Assembly (NCBI RefSeq): GCF_018860975.1
Contig: NZ_JAHKQI010000002.1
Coordinates: 62,001 to 126,000 of the forward strand
Length of the DNA stretch: 64,000 nt
Direction of reading: 5' to 3'
DNA from: Lentibacter algarum
GTDB taxonomy: Bacteria; Pseudomonadota; Alphaproteobacteria; Rhodobacterales; Rhodobacteraceae
Below are positions 22,348 through 40,451 of the stretch, one piece after another. The translations under genes and the position numbers were made by a program. Position 1 is the first letter of the stretch; every line of letters starts with the position of its first letter. The notes beneath the pieces are model-generated. The model did no database searches, was not told the origin of the DNA, and worked only from the letters and a program-made list of their open reading frames with translations.

Positions 22348-23661
22348 ATGGAAGACTATCCGGAGATCGTTCAGAAAGGCATAAGCTTGGCTGAGCAAGG
22401 CGTTGACCTCGCGAAAAACTGGTTGCTTAGCCCTGCTGCATGGTCGCAGTTTGCCCTTTTGATCGTGGCGTTTCTCCTGGCGATTTTCATTGCACGTAGG
22501 CTTCGCCCGCGGTTGAGCGACCTGCTTACGCCACCTGAAGACCAGCAAAACATCATCGCTACATCCCGGCGTTTTGTGTTGATTTTCATTCCATTGCTGC
22601 TGCCGCTTATGGCCTACCTATTCACTGGTGTTGGCGAAAGCGTTACGCGGTCGTTTTTTGGTTCGGGTGCGGTTATTGCCTTCGGCAAACGGGTGTTCCT
22701 GCTCCTTGCTGCGCGCATACTCGTAAACGAAATTCTGCGCGATCCATTTTTGAAACTGCTTGGCCGCTATGTGCTGATCCCGATTATGGCGCTCTATGCG
22801 CTCGGCTTTCTTGATTTTGCCAGTGCATGGCTTACAGCAACTGTTGTCAGCCTCGGAAACATCAGCTTTTCCTTGATGTCACTCGTGCGGGGCATCATAG
22901 CCGGCTCGCTGCTATTCTGGCTTGGGCGTTGGTCAAACGATCAGTCACATGCCTTTATTTCCAAGCAAAACGAGATGCCGCCTGCAACGCGCACGCTTGC
23001 TGCCAAAACGGCTGAAATGGTGATCTTTGGCGTGGCCTTCCTGCTGCTGATGAACATTATGGGCATCTCTCTCACCTCACTTGCGGTGCTCGGTGGTGCG
23101 ATCGGTGTTGGCCTCGGGTTTGGCCTGCAAAAGATCGCCTCGAACTTTATTTCTGGCGTTATTTTGTTGCTCGAAGGACAGGCGACTGTTGGCGACTTTG
23201 TCGAGCTTGACGGCGGCGAGGCAGGCACGATCGTTAAGATGACTGCACGCGCTGCAATACTTGAAACATTCGATGGTCGCTGGATCGTGGTGCCCAACGA
23301 GGACTTCATTACAACGCGCGTGGTGAACTACTCGGACTCAGGCAGCGCCAACCGGTATGAAGCCGACTTTTCAGTTAGTTACGATACCGACATCAACAAA
23401 ATACCAGCAATCGTTGAGGCCGCCGTTGCCACGCATGAGGGGGTGCTTGACGCGCCCTATCCGCCCGACTGTGAGCTGCGTGGGTTTGGCGAAAGCGGTG
23501 TCGACTTCTGTGTCGAATTCTGGGTGAACGGGCTTGACGACGGTAAGAACAAGTTCACCTCGGATGTGCTGTTTTTGATCTGGAATGCGCTGCGTGATAA
23601 CAACATCGAGATCCCTTATCCGCACCGTGTTGTGGAACTTCGCGACAAGGCTGGCAAATGA
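22348..23661 (+). CDS. MscS-family mechanosensitive ion channel
   Basis: Inner-membrane channel of 437 residues. Several membrane segments precede the diagnostic pore-lining helix and beta domain: LAVLGGAIGVGLGFGLQKIA, FISGVILLLEG, and the beta domain with GDFVELDGGEAGTIVKM and VVPNEDFITTRVVNYS. The C-terminal cytoplasmic domain ends PYPHRVVELRDKAGK. It is longer than E. coli MscS (286) because of extra N-terminal membrane helices, like many YbdG/YnaI-type members. AAGGCGG precedes the ATG. Stop and next start overlap as ATGA, coupling it to the flavoprotein. Confidence 0.94.
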   Translation: MEDYPEIVQKGISLAEQGVDLAKNWLLSPAAWSQFALLIVAFLLAIFIARRLRPRLSDLLTPPEDQQNIIATSRRFVLIFIPLLLPLMAYLFTGVGESVTRSFFGSGAVIAFGKRVFLLLAARILVNEILRDPFLKLLGRYVLIPIMALYALGFLDFASAWLTATVVSLGNISFSLMSLVRGIIAGSLLFWLGRWSNDQSHAFISKQNEMPPATRTLAAKTAEMVIFGVAFLLLMNIMGISLTSLAVLGGAIGVGLGFGLQKIASNFISGVILLLEGQATVGDFVELDGGEAGTIVKMTARAAILETFDGRWIVVPNEDFITTRVVNYSDSGSANRYEADFSVSYDTDINKIPAIVEAAVATHEGVLDAPYPPDCELRGFGESGVDFCVEFWVNGLDDGKNKFTSDVLFLIWNALRDNNIEIPYPHRVVELRDKAGK

Positions 23662-24803
23662 AACAGGCACTCGTAATTGGCGCGGGGCCTGCGGGGCTTA
23701 TGGCGGCGCAGGAGTTGGCAAACGCCGGCTTGAAAGTGACGATCGCCGAGGCAAAACCCTCGCCCGCGCGCAAGCTTTTGATGGCAGGGAAGTCGGGCCT
23801 GAACCTCACCAAGGACGAGCCAAAAGACGAGTTTATCGAGGCCTTCGGAGAGAGCGCCAATGAGCTGCGTCCGATGCTCGAAGCTTTCGGGCCGCAGAAC
23901 GTAAAAGCTTGGGCCAACTGGCTTGATCAAAGTGTTTTCACGGGCAGTTCCGGCCGGGTTTTTCCAGAAGCAATGAAGGCCTCGCCGCTTTTGCGAGAGT
24001 GGTTGAAACGTCTACAAGAACAAGGTGTTACTCTCAAAACGCGCTGGAAATGGCTGGGCGGTAACGACTTTGAAACGCCCGAAGGCCGTGTTGAATTTGC
24101 GCCTGATGTCACGGTGCTGGCTTGCGGCGGTGCGAGCTGGTCTCGGCTTGGATCGGACGGGAAGTGGGCCGAGCATTTTGCTGACAGTGTAGCGCCGTTC
24201 AAGCCTGCGAATATGGGGTTTGAAGTGAGCTGGTCGCAGCATATGACACCGCATTTCGGCGCGCCTGTTAAGGCTGTTCGCTTGATCGCGGGGGAGCAAG
24301 AACACCTTGGTGAGTTCGTGATTTCCCAACGTGGCATTGAGGGCAGCGGTGTTTACGCCATGTCAAAAGCGCTGCGCGAAGGGGCTGAATTGCGGCTTGA
24401 TTTGCTGCCAAAAACTCCGCTTGAAGAAGTAGAAGCACGGCTGAAGAAGGCAGGCAAACAAAGCTTGCCCAATGCATTGAAGCGGCTGAAAATTCCGGCA
24501 GCGAAACGCGCGTTGTTCTTTGAGTTTGGCAAGAATGGAGATGGCTCCACCGCTGAAAAACTCAAGAACCTGCCGATCAAGCTCGACCGCCCACGACCGC
24601 TTGATGAAGCGATATCGGTTGCGGGCGGACTGCGCTTTGAGGCGCTTGATGACGGCCTCATGCTTAGGAACCAACCAGGTGTTTTTGCGGCGGGTGAAAT
24701 GCTTGATTGGGAGGCTCCGACTGGCGGTTATTTGATTACCGCGTGCCTCGCGACAGGTAAGTGGGCGGGGCAACATGCAGCTGCGTGGGTTAACAAAACG
24801 TAA
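23658..24803 (+). CDS. BaiN/HI0933-like NAD(P)/FAD flavoprotein (TIGR03862 type)
   Basis: Predicted FAD-dependent oxidoreductase of 381 residues, of the HI0933/BaiN-like group, function unknown. The N terminus QALVIGAGPAGLMAAQELAN holds the FAD-binding GxGxxG. KLLMAGKSGLNLTKDE is the characteristic K-L-x-x-x-G-x-G-x-N/L element. LACGGASWSRLGSDG and the C-terminal AGEMLDWEAPTGGYLI complete the nucleotide-binding fold, where the terminal GGY-L is typical. Overlaps the MscS stop (ATGA). A convergent gap holding an unusual repeat element follows. Confidence 0.9.
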   Translation: MKQALVIGAGPAGLMAAQELANAGLKVTIAEAKPSPARKLLMAGKSGLNLTKDEPKDEFIEAFGESANELRPMLEAFGPQNVKAWANWLDQSVFTGSSGRVFPEAMKASPLLREWLKRLQEQGVTLKTRWKWLGGNDFETPEGRVEFAPDVTVLACGGASWSRLGSDGKWAEHFADSVAPFKPANMGFEVSWSQHMTPHFGAPVKAVRLIAGEQEHLGEFVISQRGIEGSGVYAMSKALREGAELRLDLLPKTPLEEVEARLKKAGKQSLPNALKRLKIPAAKRALFFEFGKNGDGSTAEKLKNLPIKLDRPRPLDEAISVAGGLRFEALDDGLMLRNQPGVFAAGEMLDWEAPTGGYLITACLATGKWAGQHAAAWVNKT

Positions 24804-24859
24804 AGCCGCGTTTGTAGCGGTTAACGGTGAAACCCGGGAAAAAGCAGCCTGCGCAACGG

Positions 24860-24939
24860 GTGCATACCACAGTGCATATTCTAGTGCATAACGCGTGCAT
24901 ACAGTTTTGCAGCCGAGTGTTAACCGAAATTAACTTAAC
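24860..24939 (+). repeat. Four-fold GTGCATA direct-repeat element, copy A
   Basis: GTGCATA occurs four times in the same orientation at 24860, 24872, 24884 and 24895, with 12, 12 and 11 bp start-to-start spacing. A 19-base spacer and an AT-rich tail (TTAACCGAAATTAAC then TTAAC) at 24920-24939 follow. A second copy with the same spacing is at 35233-35311. Here it lies between the convergent ends of the flavoprotein gene and polA, so it is not obviously a promoter. On the minus strand each unit reads TATGCAC; the third gives TTATGCACT, one mismatch from a DnaA box (TTWTNCACA). The role is unknown. Confidence 0.85.
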
Positions 24940-24955
24940 AGAGCGCGCGTTGCTC

Positions 24956-27745
24956 TTAATGCGCTTCTGCCCAGTTCGCGCCCTGGCCAGCGTCGACTTC
25001 CAGCTTCACGTCGATTTTTACGGCTGGCTCGGCAGCACCTTCCATCACATCGCGCGCGCGCGCAATTGTCTCGTCGATGGCGTCGTTTTCGACTTCAAAC
25101 AACAGTTCATCGTGGACTTGCAACAGCATCTTGGCTGGCAAGTCAGCAATCGCATCCGGCATTCTGATCATCGCGCGGCGGATAACGTCGGCGGCTGTGC
25201 CTTGGATCGGGGCGTTGATGGCAGCACGTTTGGCAAAACCTGCGCGCGGGCCTTTCGCAGCGATCTCGGGGGTGTGGATTTTGCGGCCAAAGAGCGTTTG
25301 CACATAGCCATGCTCTTTGGCGAACTCGACGGTCTCGTCCATGTAGGTGCGAATGCCGGGGAAGCGCTCGAAATAGCGGTTGATGAAGTCTTGTGCTTCG
25401 CCGCGCGGGATACGCAGATTGCGCGCAAGGCCAAAGCCCGAGATGCCGTAGATAACCCCGAAGTTGATCGCCTTGGCGCGGCTTCTCACTTCGCGGGTCA
25501 TCTCGTCGAGCGGGACATCAAATATCTCGGAAGCGGTCATGGCGTGGATGTCTTGCCCGTCGCGAAAGGCTTGCTTGAGCGTCTCTATTCCGGCGGTATG
25601 CGCCAAAATGCGCAGTTCGATCTGGCTGTAGTCAAGGCTGATCAGAGTCTTGCCTTCCTCGGCGATAAAGGCCTCGCGGATGCGGCGGCCATCTTCCGAG
25701 CGCACGGGGATGTTCTGCAAGTTCGGATCACTTGACGCGAGACGACCGGTGGTTGCACCTGTCTGTACATAGGAGGTGTGGACGCGGCCGGTGTCTGGGT
25801 TGATGTGCTCTTGCAGGGCGTCGGTGTAGGTGCTTTTGAGCTTTGAAAGCTGCCGCCAGTCGAGCACCCGCGCAGGCAAGTCGTGCTCTGTCGCGAGGTC
25901 TTCCAAAATATCAGCGCCAGTGGCATAGGCGCCCGTTTTGCCCTTTTTGCCGCCCTCAAGGCCCATCTCGTCAAACAGGATTTCACCGAGTTGTTTCGGG
26001 CTGCCAACGTTGAAGCTGCGGCCTGCGAGCTCATGAATTTCAGACTCTAATCCAGCCATTTTCTGGGCGAAGGCGTTGGACATGCGACTCAGAGTGTCGC
26101 GGTCAACTTTGATGCCGTGCATCTCCATTTGCGCAAGCACGGGGGATAGGGGGCGCTCAAGCCGCTCATAGACAGAAGTGACGTTTTTGACATGCAGCTT
26201 GGGCTTGAACACCTGCCAGAGGCGCAGGGTGATGTCGGCGTCTTCCGCGGCATATGTAACGGCGTCGTCGATACCGACTTTGTCAAAGGTGATCGCAGCT
26301 TTGCCAGTGCCGAGCAGCGTTTTGATCGGGATCGGGTTGTGGCTGAGGTAGCGCTCGGAAAGGGCATCCATACCGTGGTTATGCTCGCCTGCGTGCAGGG
26401 CGTAGGACATCAGCATCGTGTCATCATATGGCGCGAGAGAAACACCGTAGCGCTTGAAGATTTTGGCGTCATATTTCATGTTCTGGCCGATCTTGAGGAC
26501 GGCCTCATCTTCCAGCAGCGGTTTGAGCATTTTTAGGCACTGTTCCAGCCCAAGTTGGCCTTCCTTGAGGTCATCGGAGCCAAACAGCGCGCCCTCTTCG
26601 CCGTCTTTGTGGCCGAGCGGAATGTAGCAGGCATGCCCCGCCTCAACGCAGAGCGAAATACCGACAAGCTCGGCGATCATCTCGTTGAGCGAGGTTGTCT
26701 CGGTGTCGACAGCGACAAAGCCACGGGCGTTGGCGAGGTCGATCCACTGCTGTAGCTCTTCGACGGTGCTAACTTTCTCGTAAGTTGCCTCTTCAAACGA
26801 GGGCGCATCGGGGGTGCTGGCAGCGGCCTCAACTTCGACAATCTCCGGCGCTTCGGCTCCGAGTTGTTCAGCGACACGTTTGCTGAGGGTGCGGAACTCC
26901 ATCTCGGCCAAAAAGTTGAGCAGGGTGTCTGGCTCGGGGTCGCGCACTTCCAAGCTATCAAGCGTGAAGTTGAGCGGCGTGTTGCAATCAAGCGTGACCA
27001 GTTTTTTGGAAAGCTCGATCTGGGCACGATTGTCGATCAGCGTCTGGCGGCGCTTGGGCTGTTTGATCTCTTCGGCGCGATCAAGCAGGCTCTCGAGGTC
27101 GCCATACTCGTTGATCAAAAGCGCGGCGGTTTTGATGCCGATACCAGGTGCGCCGGGCACGTTGTCGGCGGTGTCACCAGCGAGGGCTTGCACGTCGATC
27201 ACGCGCGACGGGCCAACGCCGAACTTCTCTTCGACGCCTTCGACATCAATCCGGCGGTTCTTCATCGCGTCGAGCATTTCAACACCGCCACCGACAAGTT
27301 GCATCATGTCTTTGTCAGAGCTGATGATCGTTACCCGCCCGCCAGCGTCGCGCGCTTGGCAAGACAGCGTGGCGATGATGTCGTCGGCCTCATAGCCTTC
27401 CATCTCTTCGCAGGCGATGTTGAAAGCAACAGTCGCGCGGCGGGTGAGCGGCATTTGCGGGCGCAAGTCTTCTGGCATGGCCTCGCGGTTGGCTTTGTAG
27501 AGGTCATACAACTCGTTGCGAAAGGTGTGGCTGCCTTTGTCGAAGATCACCGCGACATGTGTCGGCGCATCGGCGCCTGTGTTGCCCTCGATATAGCGGT
27601 GCAGCATGTTGCAAAAGCCCGCAACCGCGCCGATGGGCAGGCCATCAGACTTGCGCGTTAGGGGCGGCAGAGCGTGATAGGCACGAAAGATGAAGGCGGA
27701 GCCATCAATCAGGTGCAAGTGGCACCCCTTGCCAAACTGTGTCAT
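24956..27745 (-). CDS. polA: DNA polymerase I
   Basis: Full-length 929-residue Pol I for Okazaki-fragment maturation and excision repair. The 5'-3' exonuclease domain covers about residues 1-310 (LIDGSAFIFRAYHALPPL; EADDIIATL; SSDKDMMQLV; GDTADNVPGAPGIG). The 3'-5' exonuclease domain keeps its acidic residues (VAVDTETTSLNE near 345; IGQNMKYDAKIF; YAAEDADITLRLW). The polymerase domain has GATTGRLASSDPNLQNIP, SLDYSQIELRILAH (motif A), RSRAKAINFGVIYGIS (O-helix) and LQVHDELLFEV (motif C). All three activities should be intact. The start is ATG 27745. Long open frames on the opposite strand are shadows. Confidence 0.98.
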   Translation of the reverse strand: MTQFGKGCHLHLIDGSAFIFRAYHALPPLTRKSDGLPIGAVAGFCNMLHRYIEGNTGADAPTHVAVIFDKGSHTFRNELYDLYKANREAMPEDLRPQMPLTRRATVAFNIACEEMEGYEADDIIATLSCQARDAGGRVTIISSDKDMMQLVGGGVEMLDAMKNRRIDVEGVEEKFGVGPSRVIDVQALAGDTADNVPGAPGIGIKTAALLINEYGDLESLLDRAEEIKQPKRRQTLIDNRAQIELSKKLVTLDCNTPLNFTLDSLEVRDPEPDTLLNFLAEMEFRTLSKRVAEQLGAEAPEIVEVEAAASTPDAPSFEEATYEKVSTVEELQQWIDLANARGFVAVDTETTSLNEMIAELVGISLCVEAGHACYIPLGHKDGEEGALFGSDDLKEGQLGLEQCLKMLKPLLEDEAVLKIGQNMKYDAKIFKRYGVSLAPYDDTMLMSYALHAGEHNHGMDALSERYLSHNPIPIKTLLGTGKAAITFDKVGIDDAVTYAAEDADITLRLWQVFKPKLHVKNVTSVYERLERPLSPVLAQMEMHGIKVDRDTLSRMSNAFAQKMAGLESEIHELAGRSFNVGSPKQLGEILFDEMGLEGGKKGKTGAYATGADILEDLATEHDLPARVLDWRQLSKLKSTYTDALQEHINPDTGRVHTSYVQTGATTGRLASSDPNLQNIPVRSEDGRRIREAFIAEEGKTLISLDYSQIELRILAHTAGIETLKQAFRDGQDIHAMTASEIFDVPLDEMTREVRSRAKAINFGVIYGISGFGLARNLRIPRGEAQDFINRYFERFPGIRTYMDETVEFAKEHGYVQTLFGRKIHTPEIAAKGPRAGFAKRAAINAPIQGTAADVIRRAMIRMPDAIADLPAKMLLQVHDELLFEVENDAIDETIARARDVMEGAAEPAVKIDVKLEVDAGQGANWAEAH

Positions 27746-34188: not shown

Positions 34189-34296
34189 GGGCGGGGTATG
34201 CCTTTCGGAGCCGCGTTTTTCAAGCGTAAGATTTGCGCATGAAACGGGTCGCGCATAGGCGGCGGGTTGGCTAGGCTTAGGTCAGGAGGACATGCT

Positions 34297-35145
34297 ATGA
34301 CCATGCAAGAGCCCGAGGGCCAGTATCACTACCAAATGATGCGCCGCGCGTTGGAGATCATCGACGCCGCTGAAGAGACGCTATCGCTTGAAGGTCTGGC
34401 CAAGCAGATGAACATGTCTTCGGCGCATTTTCAGCGGGTTTTCTCAAGCTGGGTCGGGGTGTCTCCAAAGCGTTATCAGCAGTATTTGCAGCTTGGGCAG
34501 GCCAAGGAGATGCTGACTAACCGTATGACAACACTTGATGTTTCGCACGAGATCGGTTTGTCGGGGTCGGGGCGTTTGCACGACATGTTCCTGCGCTGGG
34601 AGGCAATGAGCCCCGGCGAGTTTGCCCGCAGGGGAGAGGGGCTGACAGTGCGCTTTGGCTGGTTTGACAGCCCCTTCGGAGAAGCGCTTGTGATGGGCAC
34701 GGCGAAGGGCATTTGCGGCTTGGCTTTCGTTGCAGAAACGGGGCCGGAAGAGGCCATGCGCGATATGCGCAGCCGCTGGCCGAATGCGGTGTATGAGCAG
34801 GACGAAACAGCGCTTGAACCTTGGGTGAAAGCCGCGTTTGCGCAGGACGGCGAAACGGCTTTGCACCTCATTGGCGCGCCTTTTCAGATCAAGGTTTGGG
34901 AGGCGTTGTTAAAGGTGCCGACGGGGCATGTGACAACATACTCTGAGATCGCCGGAGCCGTTGGCAGCCCCAAAGCAGTGAGGGCAGTGGGAACGGCTGT
35001 TGGCCGCAACCCGGTGAGCTGGCTCATTCCGTGTCACCGTGCTTTGCGAAAGTCGGGTGCTCTTGGCGGGTATCACTGGGGCTTGCCAGTGAAGCGTGCT
35101 TTGCTGGCTTGGGAGTCGGCGCGCGAGGATAGCCTTGCAAAATAG
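34297..35145 (+). CDS. AraC-type HTH fused to O6-methylguanine-DNA methyltransferase
   Basis: An Ada-like protein of 282 residues without the N-terminal methylphosphotriester-accepting Cys domain. Residues about 15-105 form an AraC/XylS HTH (LSLEGLAKQMNMSSAHFQRVFSSW; GVSPKRYQQYLQLGQA; a second helix pair in VSHEIGLSGSG). The C-terminal part is an MGMT suicide methyltransferase: VWEALLKVPTGHVTTYSEIA, AVRAVGTAVGRNP and the acceptor PCHR in SWLIPCHRALRKSG. It repairs alkylated guanine directly. Whether the HTH still controls transcription is unclear. AGGAGGA at 34284-34290 fixes the start. Confidence 0.93.
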   Translation: MTMQEPEGQYHYQMMRRALEIIDAAEETLSLEGLAKQMNMSSAHFQRVFSSWVGVSPKRYQQYLQLGQAKEMLTNRMTTLDVSHEIGLSGSGRLHDMFLRWEAMSPGEFARRGEGLTVRFGWFDSPFGEALVMGTAKGICGLAFVAETGPEEAMRDMRSRWPNAVYEQDETALEPWVKAAFAQDGETALHLIGAPFQIKVWEALLKVPTGHVTTYSEIAGAVGSPKAVRAVGTAVGRNPVSWLIPCHRALRKSGALGGYHWGLPVKRALLAWESAREDSLAK

Positions 35146-35232
35146 GGTTATCATGAATTTCCGAAGGCCGAATGACGCCAGCGTTTGAAGACGTTAACCT
35201 TGTTTGCTGCGAGCCATTCGCAGGTGACTTGC

Positions 35233-35311
35233 GTGCATACCACAGTGCATACCATAGTGCATAATGCGTGCAGACGATCGCGCCCGGCGTCTTAAGCGAT
35301 ATTAACTTAAC
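35233..35311 (+). repeat. Four-fold GTGCATA direct-repeat element, copy B
   Basis: Units start at 35233, 35245, 35257 and 35268 (the last is GTGCAGA), with 12, 12 and 11 bp spacing exactly as in copy A (24860-24939). A 17-base GC-rich spacer and the tail TTAAGCGATATTAAC plus TTAAC (35292-35311) follow. The first 13 bases and most of the tail are identical between copies, while spacers differ, which points to conserved protein-binding sites. Here it lies 73 bases upstream of the likely OmpA promoter. Confidence 0.85.
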
Positions 35312-35430: not shown

Positions 35431-35457
35431 ATGAGCGACCAATGTAATGAGGCATAG
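35431..35457 (+). CDS. Possible 8-codon leader peptide
   Basis: ATGAGC...GCATAG encodes MSDQCNEA and stops one base before the OmpA ATG (35459). AAGGA at 35416-35420 lies 10 bases upstream. Stop and start are so close that re-initiation or coupling is possible. The main gene has its own GAGG site inside this frame. It may be fortuitous. Confidence 0.3.
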   Translation: MSDQCNEA

Positions 35458-35458
35458 T

Positions 35459-36118
35459 ATGAAATTTTTGAACAAGTTTACCGGCGCTCTTTGCGCGCTT
35501 TCGATTTTTGCAGTTGCGGGTTGCACAGAAGGGCCGCTTGTCAGCCCCGACGACCCCAACCAGAAGACCAAAAACGGTGCGATGATTGGTGCTGCCGCGG
35601 GTGCTGTTCTTGGCGCGCTGACCAGCAGCGACGAAAAGCGCGGTGCTGTTAAGGGCGCGCTGATCGGTGCGGGTGTTGGCGGCATCAGTGGTGCGCTGCT
35701 CGACAAACAGGAAGCCGACTTGCGTCAGGAACTGGGCAACGGTGCCACCATCCAGAACACCGGTGACCGGCTGATTGTAACGATGGCGCAGGACATTCTG
35801 TTCGCCACCGGAAGCGCAACGCTGCGCCCCGACATCAACCGTGATATCAGAGCCGTTGCCGGCAGTTTGCAGGCCTACCCGAACTCGACTGTTCAGGTGA
35901 TCGGCCACACCGACAATGTCGGCGATGCTGGCTACAACTTTGATCTGTCGCTGCGCCGTGGGCAAGCCGTGACGCAGGTGCTTGCCAGTGAAGGTGTAAC
36001 AACCAGCCGGATGCAGGCAGTGGGCCGCGGTGAAGACCAGCCTGTCGCCAGCAACCTGACGCCGGAAGGCCGCCAACAAAACCGCCGGGTCGAGATTGTG
36101 ATTGTTCCGACCAGCTAG
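35459..36118 (+). CDS. OmpA-family outer membrane lipoprotein
   Basis: A 219-residue YiaD/Pal-like lipoprotein. The signal peptide ends in a lipobox AVAGC (Cys at about residue 23). Residues about 42-85 form a glycine-zipper segment (GAMIGAAAGAVLGAL; GALIGAGVGGISGALLDKQ). The OmpA C-terminal peptidoglycan-binding domain follows, with ILFATGSATLRPDI, VQVIGHTDNVGDAGYN, LSLRRGQAVTQVL and PEGRQQNRRVEIVI. It should sit in the outer membrane and grip the cell wall. A strong terminator follows, and upstream lie a promoter and the GTGCATA element. Confidence 0.95.
   Translation: MKFLNKFTGALCALSIFAVAGCTEGPLVSPDDPNQKTKNGAMIGAAAGAVLGALTSSDEKRGAVKGALIGAGVGGISGALLDKQEADLRQELGNGATIQNTGDRLIVTMAQDILFATGSATLRPDINRDIRAVAGSLQAYPNSTVQVIGHTDNVGDAGYNFDLSLRRGQAVTQVLASEGVTTSRMQAVGRGEDQPVASNLTPEGRQQNRRVEIVIVPTS

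Positions 36119-39296: not shown

Positions 39297-40451
<1,155 letters not shown>

Follow-up and report, generated by a model that had tools for sequence, protein, structure and literature searches.

Copies A and B, the two repeat arrays in the window (the whole 64,000-nt stretch of Lentibacter algarum DNA analysed here), belong to a set of about 72 composite, direction-marked sites in the genome, and we lean, with moderate confidence, towards the view that a putative protein reads these sites as landmarks for a replication-linked, chromosome-wide process. Each copy consists of three or four TGCA-cored units placed one helical turn apart. Among open-licence papers, we found nothing that matches these arrays.

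The earlier note described four GTGCATA units in copy A, their recurrence at copy B, and a position of copy A between convergent genes. All three descriptions are confirmed (Table 1); the periods in copy A are 12, 12 and 11, and the fourth unit of copy B is degenerate. The TTAANCGANATTAACTTAAC tails occupy 24920-24939 in copy A and 35292-35311 in copy B. A gene for a CcrM-like adenine methyltransferase (39297-40451, + strand; score below the curated cut-off) lies 4 kb from copy B. The site expected for such an enzyme, which we take to be GANTC, is present in some left caps and absent from others.

Table 1. Features of the two arrays and of the adjoining genes, in window coordinates
Feature	Position	Strand	Basis or remark
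TIGR03862 family flavoprotein gene	23658..24803	+	56 bp between its end and the copy A array
Left GTTAAC, copy A	24820..24825	+	sequence; GTTAAC enrichment near arrays
Left cap, copy A (CCTGCGCAACGG; elsewhere TGTGACTCGG, TGCACAATGC etc.)	24848..24859	+	comparison of copies
Array, copy A	24860..24901	+	GTGCATA at 24860, 24872, 24884 and 24895
Last units and right cap GTGCATAACGCGTGCATACAGTTTTG, copy A	24884..24909	+	overlaps the array
Right GTTAAC, copy A, with the AT-rich tail and the end GCGCGCGTTGC	24919..24953	+	
polA, DNA polymerase I	24956..27745	-	convergent with the TIGR03862 flavoprotein gene
Ada/Ogt-type methylated-DNA methyltransferase gene	34267..35145	+	upstream of copy B
Left GTTAAC, copy B	35193..35198	+	
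Array, copy B	35233..35274	+	GTGCATA at 35233, 35245 and 35257, then GTGCAGA at 35268
AT-rich tail, copy B (TTAAGCGATATTAACTTAAC)	35292..35311	+	
YiaD-type OmpA lipoprotein gene	35447..36118	+	downstream of copy B

In the whole genome (G000; 3,650,272 bases, 3.65 Mb, 11 contigs), three units at period 12 with at most three mismatches were found at 74 places (36 forward, 38 reverse), versus 0 for a reversed-pattern control. Merging of overlaps gives 72 elements, and the 70 fetched with flanks are the base of most counts below. Four TGCA spaced at period 12 form a palindromic pattern, and a scan with it was uninformative. The pair seen in the earlier note is thus real and far above chance, and it is not just a duplicated pair. 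Read on the element strand, an element shows GTTAAC, followed after about 30 bp by a cap (CTGTGACTCGG, CTGCACAATGC or similar) and three GTGCATA at 12 bp; its 3' part comprises the right cap AATGCG, TGCTGACAG or TATGCACAG, TTTTG, a short stretch, and again GTTAAC. Conservation among the L. algarum copies spans some 60 bp. In 68 of 70 copies, a GTTAAC lies no more than about 120 bp from the centre on one or both sides (left 56, right 50, both sides 38), and over the 70 loci its density is 7.50 per kb up to 120 bp from array centres versus 0.157 per kb at distances above 200 bp. The AT-rich tail, which had been taken as part of the repeat, is present at both window copies but marks only a sub-type, the general flank being GTTAAC; with up to three mismatches, the tail occurs at 17 places genome-wide, 14 of them beside an array. 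A motif near TTAACGCNGCGNGCG lies downstream in nine cases for 28 arrays and has four matches elsewhere in 464 kb. The caps are mosaic, with variants common to different copies. GTGCATA is exact in 194 of 210 units, and the 140 five-base spacers fall into 25 kinds, in line with the conserved units and diverged spacers noted earlier from the two copies. Since the cores are constant and the spacers free, this is the pattern of protein-binding sites under selection, and the proposal of helically phased, putative binding sites fits the data.

The arrays are oriented with respect to GC skew, nearly all of them along the apparent leading strand. The GTGCATA strand is G-rich at 63 of 70 elements by flank skew and at 62 of 70 by third-codon-position skew, leaving 7-8 discordant arrays, and the mean local skew is +0.081 at + elements (33) and -0.084 at - elements (37). 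This effect is flat across about 1.4 kb on each side of the elements. Sorted by net gene orientation, the flanks are G-rich on this strand in 15/15, 23/27 and 25/28 elements; since the polarity is held in every class, transcription is not its cause. Adjacent elements are co-oriented in just 32 of 62 pairs because the local skew flips sign over tens of kilobases. A divergent (outward-pointing) array pair brackets dnaA, dnaN and gyrB (L310:6960-15042), where the skew switches from negative to positive values. Elements that lie further to the left on that contig are again in positive skew.

In G381 and G330, which represent two other genera, the GTGCAT strand is C-rich in 19/20 elements each (20 elements examined per genome, out of 23 and 48), and the reverse complement of these arrays reads (ATGCACA N4)x3 ATGCATA. 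The G381 end TGCATATCGCACCTGCAG aligns with TGCATAATGCGTGCTGACAG of L. algarum, and on this alignment we judge the polarity of both genomes to be probably the same as in L. algarum. Among further relatives, the orientation is to the G-rich strand in G136 (13/13) and G001 (7/7), and has the sign of G330 in Harenicola maris KMM 3653 (G262, 5/6) and Paenihalocynthiibacter styelae MYP1-1 (G328, 6/8); among the matches listed, 22 of 26 named loci have the sign of G330 and G381, and four the opposite. Orientation by replichore alone gives P 0.02 in G381 and is not significant in G330 (P from 0.16 to 0.56, depending on the origin chosen). The discordance in L. algarum looks old, since counterparts in the closest congener, G003, are also off-sign: the skew there is zero or negative in three of four discordant and in none of eight concordant arrays (loci of 1.5-3.8 kb, discordant being defined here by contig majority).

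The spacing of the arrays in L. algarum is more even than random (CV 0.66, P 0.0002), with a smallest gap of 5.1 kb (P 0.0006) and a largest of 121 kb (P 0.003). The 23 elements of G381 behave likewise (CV 0.59, P 0.005). For the 48 elements of G330 the CV of 0.82 is not significant (P 0.10), and the smallest gap, 19.6 kb, is matched in 0 of 5000 simulations. Deletion between close repeats could be a source of the absence of close pairs.

The strict pattern occurs at 10 places in G003, at two weak places in G004 and at none in the other four congeners; one more G003 array came from another scan and one, at polA, from inspecting a site of L. algarum. Of these 12 arrays, 10 are flanked left and right by orthologues of the genes around an L. 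algarum array (one of them by the second gene called), or 9 of 11 if the polA array is left aside; one of the remaining two has neighbours at two different L. algarum sites and the other a single matched neighbour. The layout is retained in G003, and the unit spelling and caps differ. The earlier note had named chance frequency and lack of conservation at the same loci as the findings that would speak against it; the count of 74 against 0 is not chance, and many arrays lie at orthologous sites in this closest congener. The 400 kb of G001 that were scanned contain seven arrays, five of them near GTTAAC, whose units resemble GTGCACAACCC and recur every 11 bases. One is at the arfB site, also an array site in L. 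algarum and G003, and this locus matches L036 alone among the 70 L. algarum loci (71% over 1535 bases). GTTAAC is enriched beside arrays in L. algarum, G381, G330, G262 and G136; it is weaker in G328 (1.39 versus 0.366 per kb), and G381 has just 10 GTTAAC near 20 arrays.

With one genome per genus, exact GTGCAT units at period 11-12 were found in 20 of 394 genera of the family, controls giving 0. The general form RTGCAY (period 11 or 12) had any match in 59 of the 394 and at least four forward matches in 27, against three for controls, dispersal having been checked in only part of the 27. The system is thus missing in most genera, or its units are spelled otherwise there. Harenicola maris is assigned to Rhodobacterales, Paracoccaceae in the NCBI taxonomy, and the surveyed family that includes it is, we assume, Rhodobacteraceae sensu lato. 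A class-level scan of 289 genomes (285 outside the family) showed no dispersed set; one of these genomes gave 19 forward matches, those listed all at one tandem locus. Two other repeats were encountered. Five loci of an Amaricoccus MAG (L173, L202, L203, L205, L225) have a near-identical long flank around three period-11 GTGCAT units and look like a repeat family of their own, perhaps coding, with mixed skew signs (three negative, two positive). A 0.8-Mb alphaproteobacterial genome (G530, contig C4 near 51 kb) contains the 11-base unit TGCACAGGTTA in a single long tandem run.

Several of these features would also be expected of a mobile, MITE-like repeat inserted in the single-stranded lagging-strand template at the fork, with the even spacing due to target immunity or loss of close pairs. 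The patchy distribution among genera, the preference for gene 3' ends and the mosaic caps common to several copies are consistent with such an origin, as is the xth-pgi site, where the distance between the two stops is -17 to 2 bp in five congeners versus 189 bp, with an array, in L. algarum. Neither the polA nor the xth-pgi position has an array in the five other congeners, which indicates that single sites are dispensable. At the polA 3' end of the congeners G005, G002, G001 and G004 (L073, L074, L075 and L076), a different repeat, TTTCGAATTGTGC..GCACAATCCGACC, precedes a GC-rich stretch, and no array is present there. However, the spacers vary while the cores stay, and the G003 arrays retain their cores at the sites of L. 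algarum arrays. A plasmid or phage origin was rejected: the exact L. algarum pattern had no match in IMG/VR, two typed array queries had none in PLSDB, and phage records gave only chance 27-base pieces. We consider the mobile repeat possible but unlikely.

The gap between neighbouring arrays depends on how they face each other. The median gap of divergent versus convergent pairs is 12.0 versus 84.1 kb in L. algarum (15 and 16 gaps, with ranges that narrowly fail to overlap; P 1.2e-6), 29.0 versus 130.6 kb in G330 (14 and 14 gaps; P 4.3e-4), and 43.2 versus 203.1 kb in G381 (5 and 5 gaps; P 4.0e-3), the tandem medians lying between. When the seven close divergent pairs of L. algarum are pooled (20-kb stretches), the third-position skew of + and - strand genes is -0.14 and -0.13 on the left, and +0.08 and +0.21 on the right. 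Single pairs are uneven, with positive skew on both sides of L312 and a rise only to about zero at L307 and L308. Judged by eye, the genes between the seven pairs, dnaA, dnaN and gyrB among them, are presumably housekeeping genes, and no tRNA genes were found there.

Extra initiation zones, inversions ending near arrays, or a fixed domain architecture would each give this pattern of gaps and skew. A simple inversion could have produced the discordant arrays, but alone it leaves the short divergent and long convergent gaps unaccounted for unless the inversion ends near arrays. The G003 array L134 has the left neighbour of one L. algarum array and the right neighbour of another (L042, L018), which places a rearrangement end at or next to an array. 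As a doubtful extension of the landmark reading, the arrays might form a code that gives chromosome domains their orientation, with a fast-evolving DNA-binding protein common to many genera of the family as its reader; close divergent pairs would then be domain borders or secondary initiation zones, and convergent pairs would delimit loops, or zones where forks meet, about 40-370 kb in length. It seems improbable that the close divergent pairs are extra replication initiation zones with the arrays as outward-pointing borders. The pooled skew flip on both gene strands and the short divergent and long convergent gaps in three genera agree with such zones, but the skew change is uneven at single pairs, and inversions with ends near arrays could yield the same pattern. 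In G001, moreover, the skew is positive in nine stretches to 1.4 Mb and then negative, with near-zero values at 2.18-2.36 and 2.98-3.16 Mb. We know of no precedent for several origins in one bacterial chromosome.

DnaA titration, which the earlier note had raised, is not borne out. When DnaA boxes follow one another head to tail with 2-3 bp between them, their period is 11-12, equal to that of the arrays; the period-11 units, which read ATGCACA on the G-rich strand, are similar to the box end, and the array pair around dnaA, dnaN and gyrB also suits a DnaA role. However, the exact consensus TTWTNCACA occurs near only 2/70 L. algarum, 0/20 G381, 3/20 G330 and 0/7 G001 arrays, and the base that continues the box is A after unit 1 in 3/70 and after unit 2 in 7/70 L. 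algarum elements. The DnaA-box-like unit TTATGCACT is indeed present, but only as the third unit. DnaA is conserved, and its box should therefore not change spelling between species, as the units do. Seventy clusters also far exceed the known DnaA titration sites. Clusters of boxes that titrate or reactivate DnaA are thus a highly improbable identity for the arrays.

By a home-made codon-based gene caller, 69/70 elements are outside called genes. Genes were called on either side of 66 elements, of which 32 lie between convergent, 22 between tandem and 12 between divergent genes, whereas 138 array-free gaps of 100-800 bp (464 kb) comprise 10 convergent, 79 tandem and 49 divergent ones (32/66 versus 10/138, Fisher P 5e-11, convergent versus rest). 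In tandem pairs, 19/22 arrays are closer to the 3' end of the upstream gene. This preference would suit a gene-end function, either as two-sided terminators of transcription or as RNA elements, but the array orientation tracks GC skew and not genes, and 12/66 arrays are between divergent genes. Conserved RNA structure was rejected, since RNAalifold on 67/70 elements gave 10 pairs with a double change in one; single-strand DNA folds of eight elements had z from 0.79 to -1.77 (four near -1.7), with no strong structure. A known RNA family was likewise rejected, the Rfam gathering score giving one tRNA only (14/70 loci). We regard terminators or RNA elements as very doubtful. The gene xth adjoins arrays in L. 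algarum, G003, G381 and G328, with the array downstream of it in the former two and upstream in the latter two; flanking genes that recur beside arrays (xth) were checked as a clue to the binder, and no binder was found among them.

Known dispersed sites resemble the arrays in part. KOPS, SRS and AIMS are polar sequences that serve the FtsK and SpoIIIE translocases, with the FtsK gamma domain as a reader. KOPS and SRS are skewed octamers found all over the chromosome, as described in part of PMC6549158, and AIMS are 8-bp sequences, according to the portion of PMC5993296 available. The arrays are similarly dispersed and oriented, and the leading-strand bias of such motifs is matched in the arrays by local GC skew; unlike these 8-mers, there are about 72 intergenic sites of more than 60 bp, with GTTAAC nearby and a species-specific spelling. 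The available part of PMC7901474, on a member of Rhodobacterales, mentions KOPS and gives no sequence. In number and dispersion the arrays are like the sites of nucleoid occlusion, namely the approximately 70 Noc sites and 24-52 SlmA sites reported in the accessible part of PMC4726725. Those sites, as far as that part describes them, are palindromes under-represented near the terminus, whereas the arrays are directed, although the TGCA core of each unit is palindromic. The gap that spans the skew change is the largest of 48 in G330 (367 kb) and the fourth largest of 23 in G381. The arrays thus have neither the full set of features that defines KOPS nor that of Noc and SlmA sites. Like REP/BIME elements, which can be associated with a RAYT transposase, they are intergenic, multicopy, 3'-end biased and mosaic; they lack the GTAG-headed palindrome given in the available part of PMC2817692, and their cores are kept at common positions in a second species. 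A conserved stable hairpin of the REP type was not found (67 elements by RNAalifold, eight folded as DNA). DnaA titration sites, terminators, RNA elements and REP-type palindromes all fit the arrays poorly.

The CtrA site is TTAA-N7-TTAA, and it was rejected since the tails of copies A and B have TTAA-N6-TTAA, as counted in these two window copies. The CTCF-bounded loops of animal chromosomes have directed sites, close divergent pairs and long convergent intervals. The likeness of the arrays to these loops would be one of working and not of kinship, the host being bacterial, the protein another, and the arrays known from sequence only.

Returning to the landmark reading, we consider that a sequence-specific candidate protein would bind the units cooperatively, on one face of the DNA, and that the bound complex would have a front and a back and so give direction. 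Such a complex may serve as a landmark in some chromosome-wide process running in the direction of replication, most likely segregation or compaction, where it could load, guide or stop a translocating machine, e.g. an FtsK- or SMC-type motor. The respelling of units at kept positions might come from co-evolution of site and binder, or from conversion among copies. A putative role in segregation or as a nucleoid-protein platform rather than a promoter, as suggested earlier from copy A, fits what was found. Since the same layout occurs with other spelling in some related bacteria, a putative protein probably reads the arrays to organise or move the chromosome. Directed, evenly spaced sites with a layout common to genera, but not a common spelling, point to a putative chromosome-organising protein in a large bacterial family. 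The arrays may offer a ready test of how bacterial chromosome machinery uses orientation, and their spelling turnover at kept positions would illustrate cleanly, in a natural setting, either co-evolution of binder and sites or concerted evolution.
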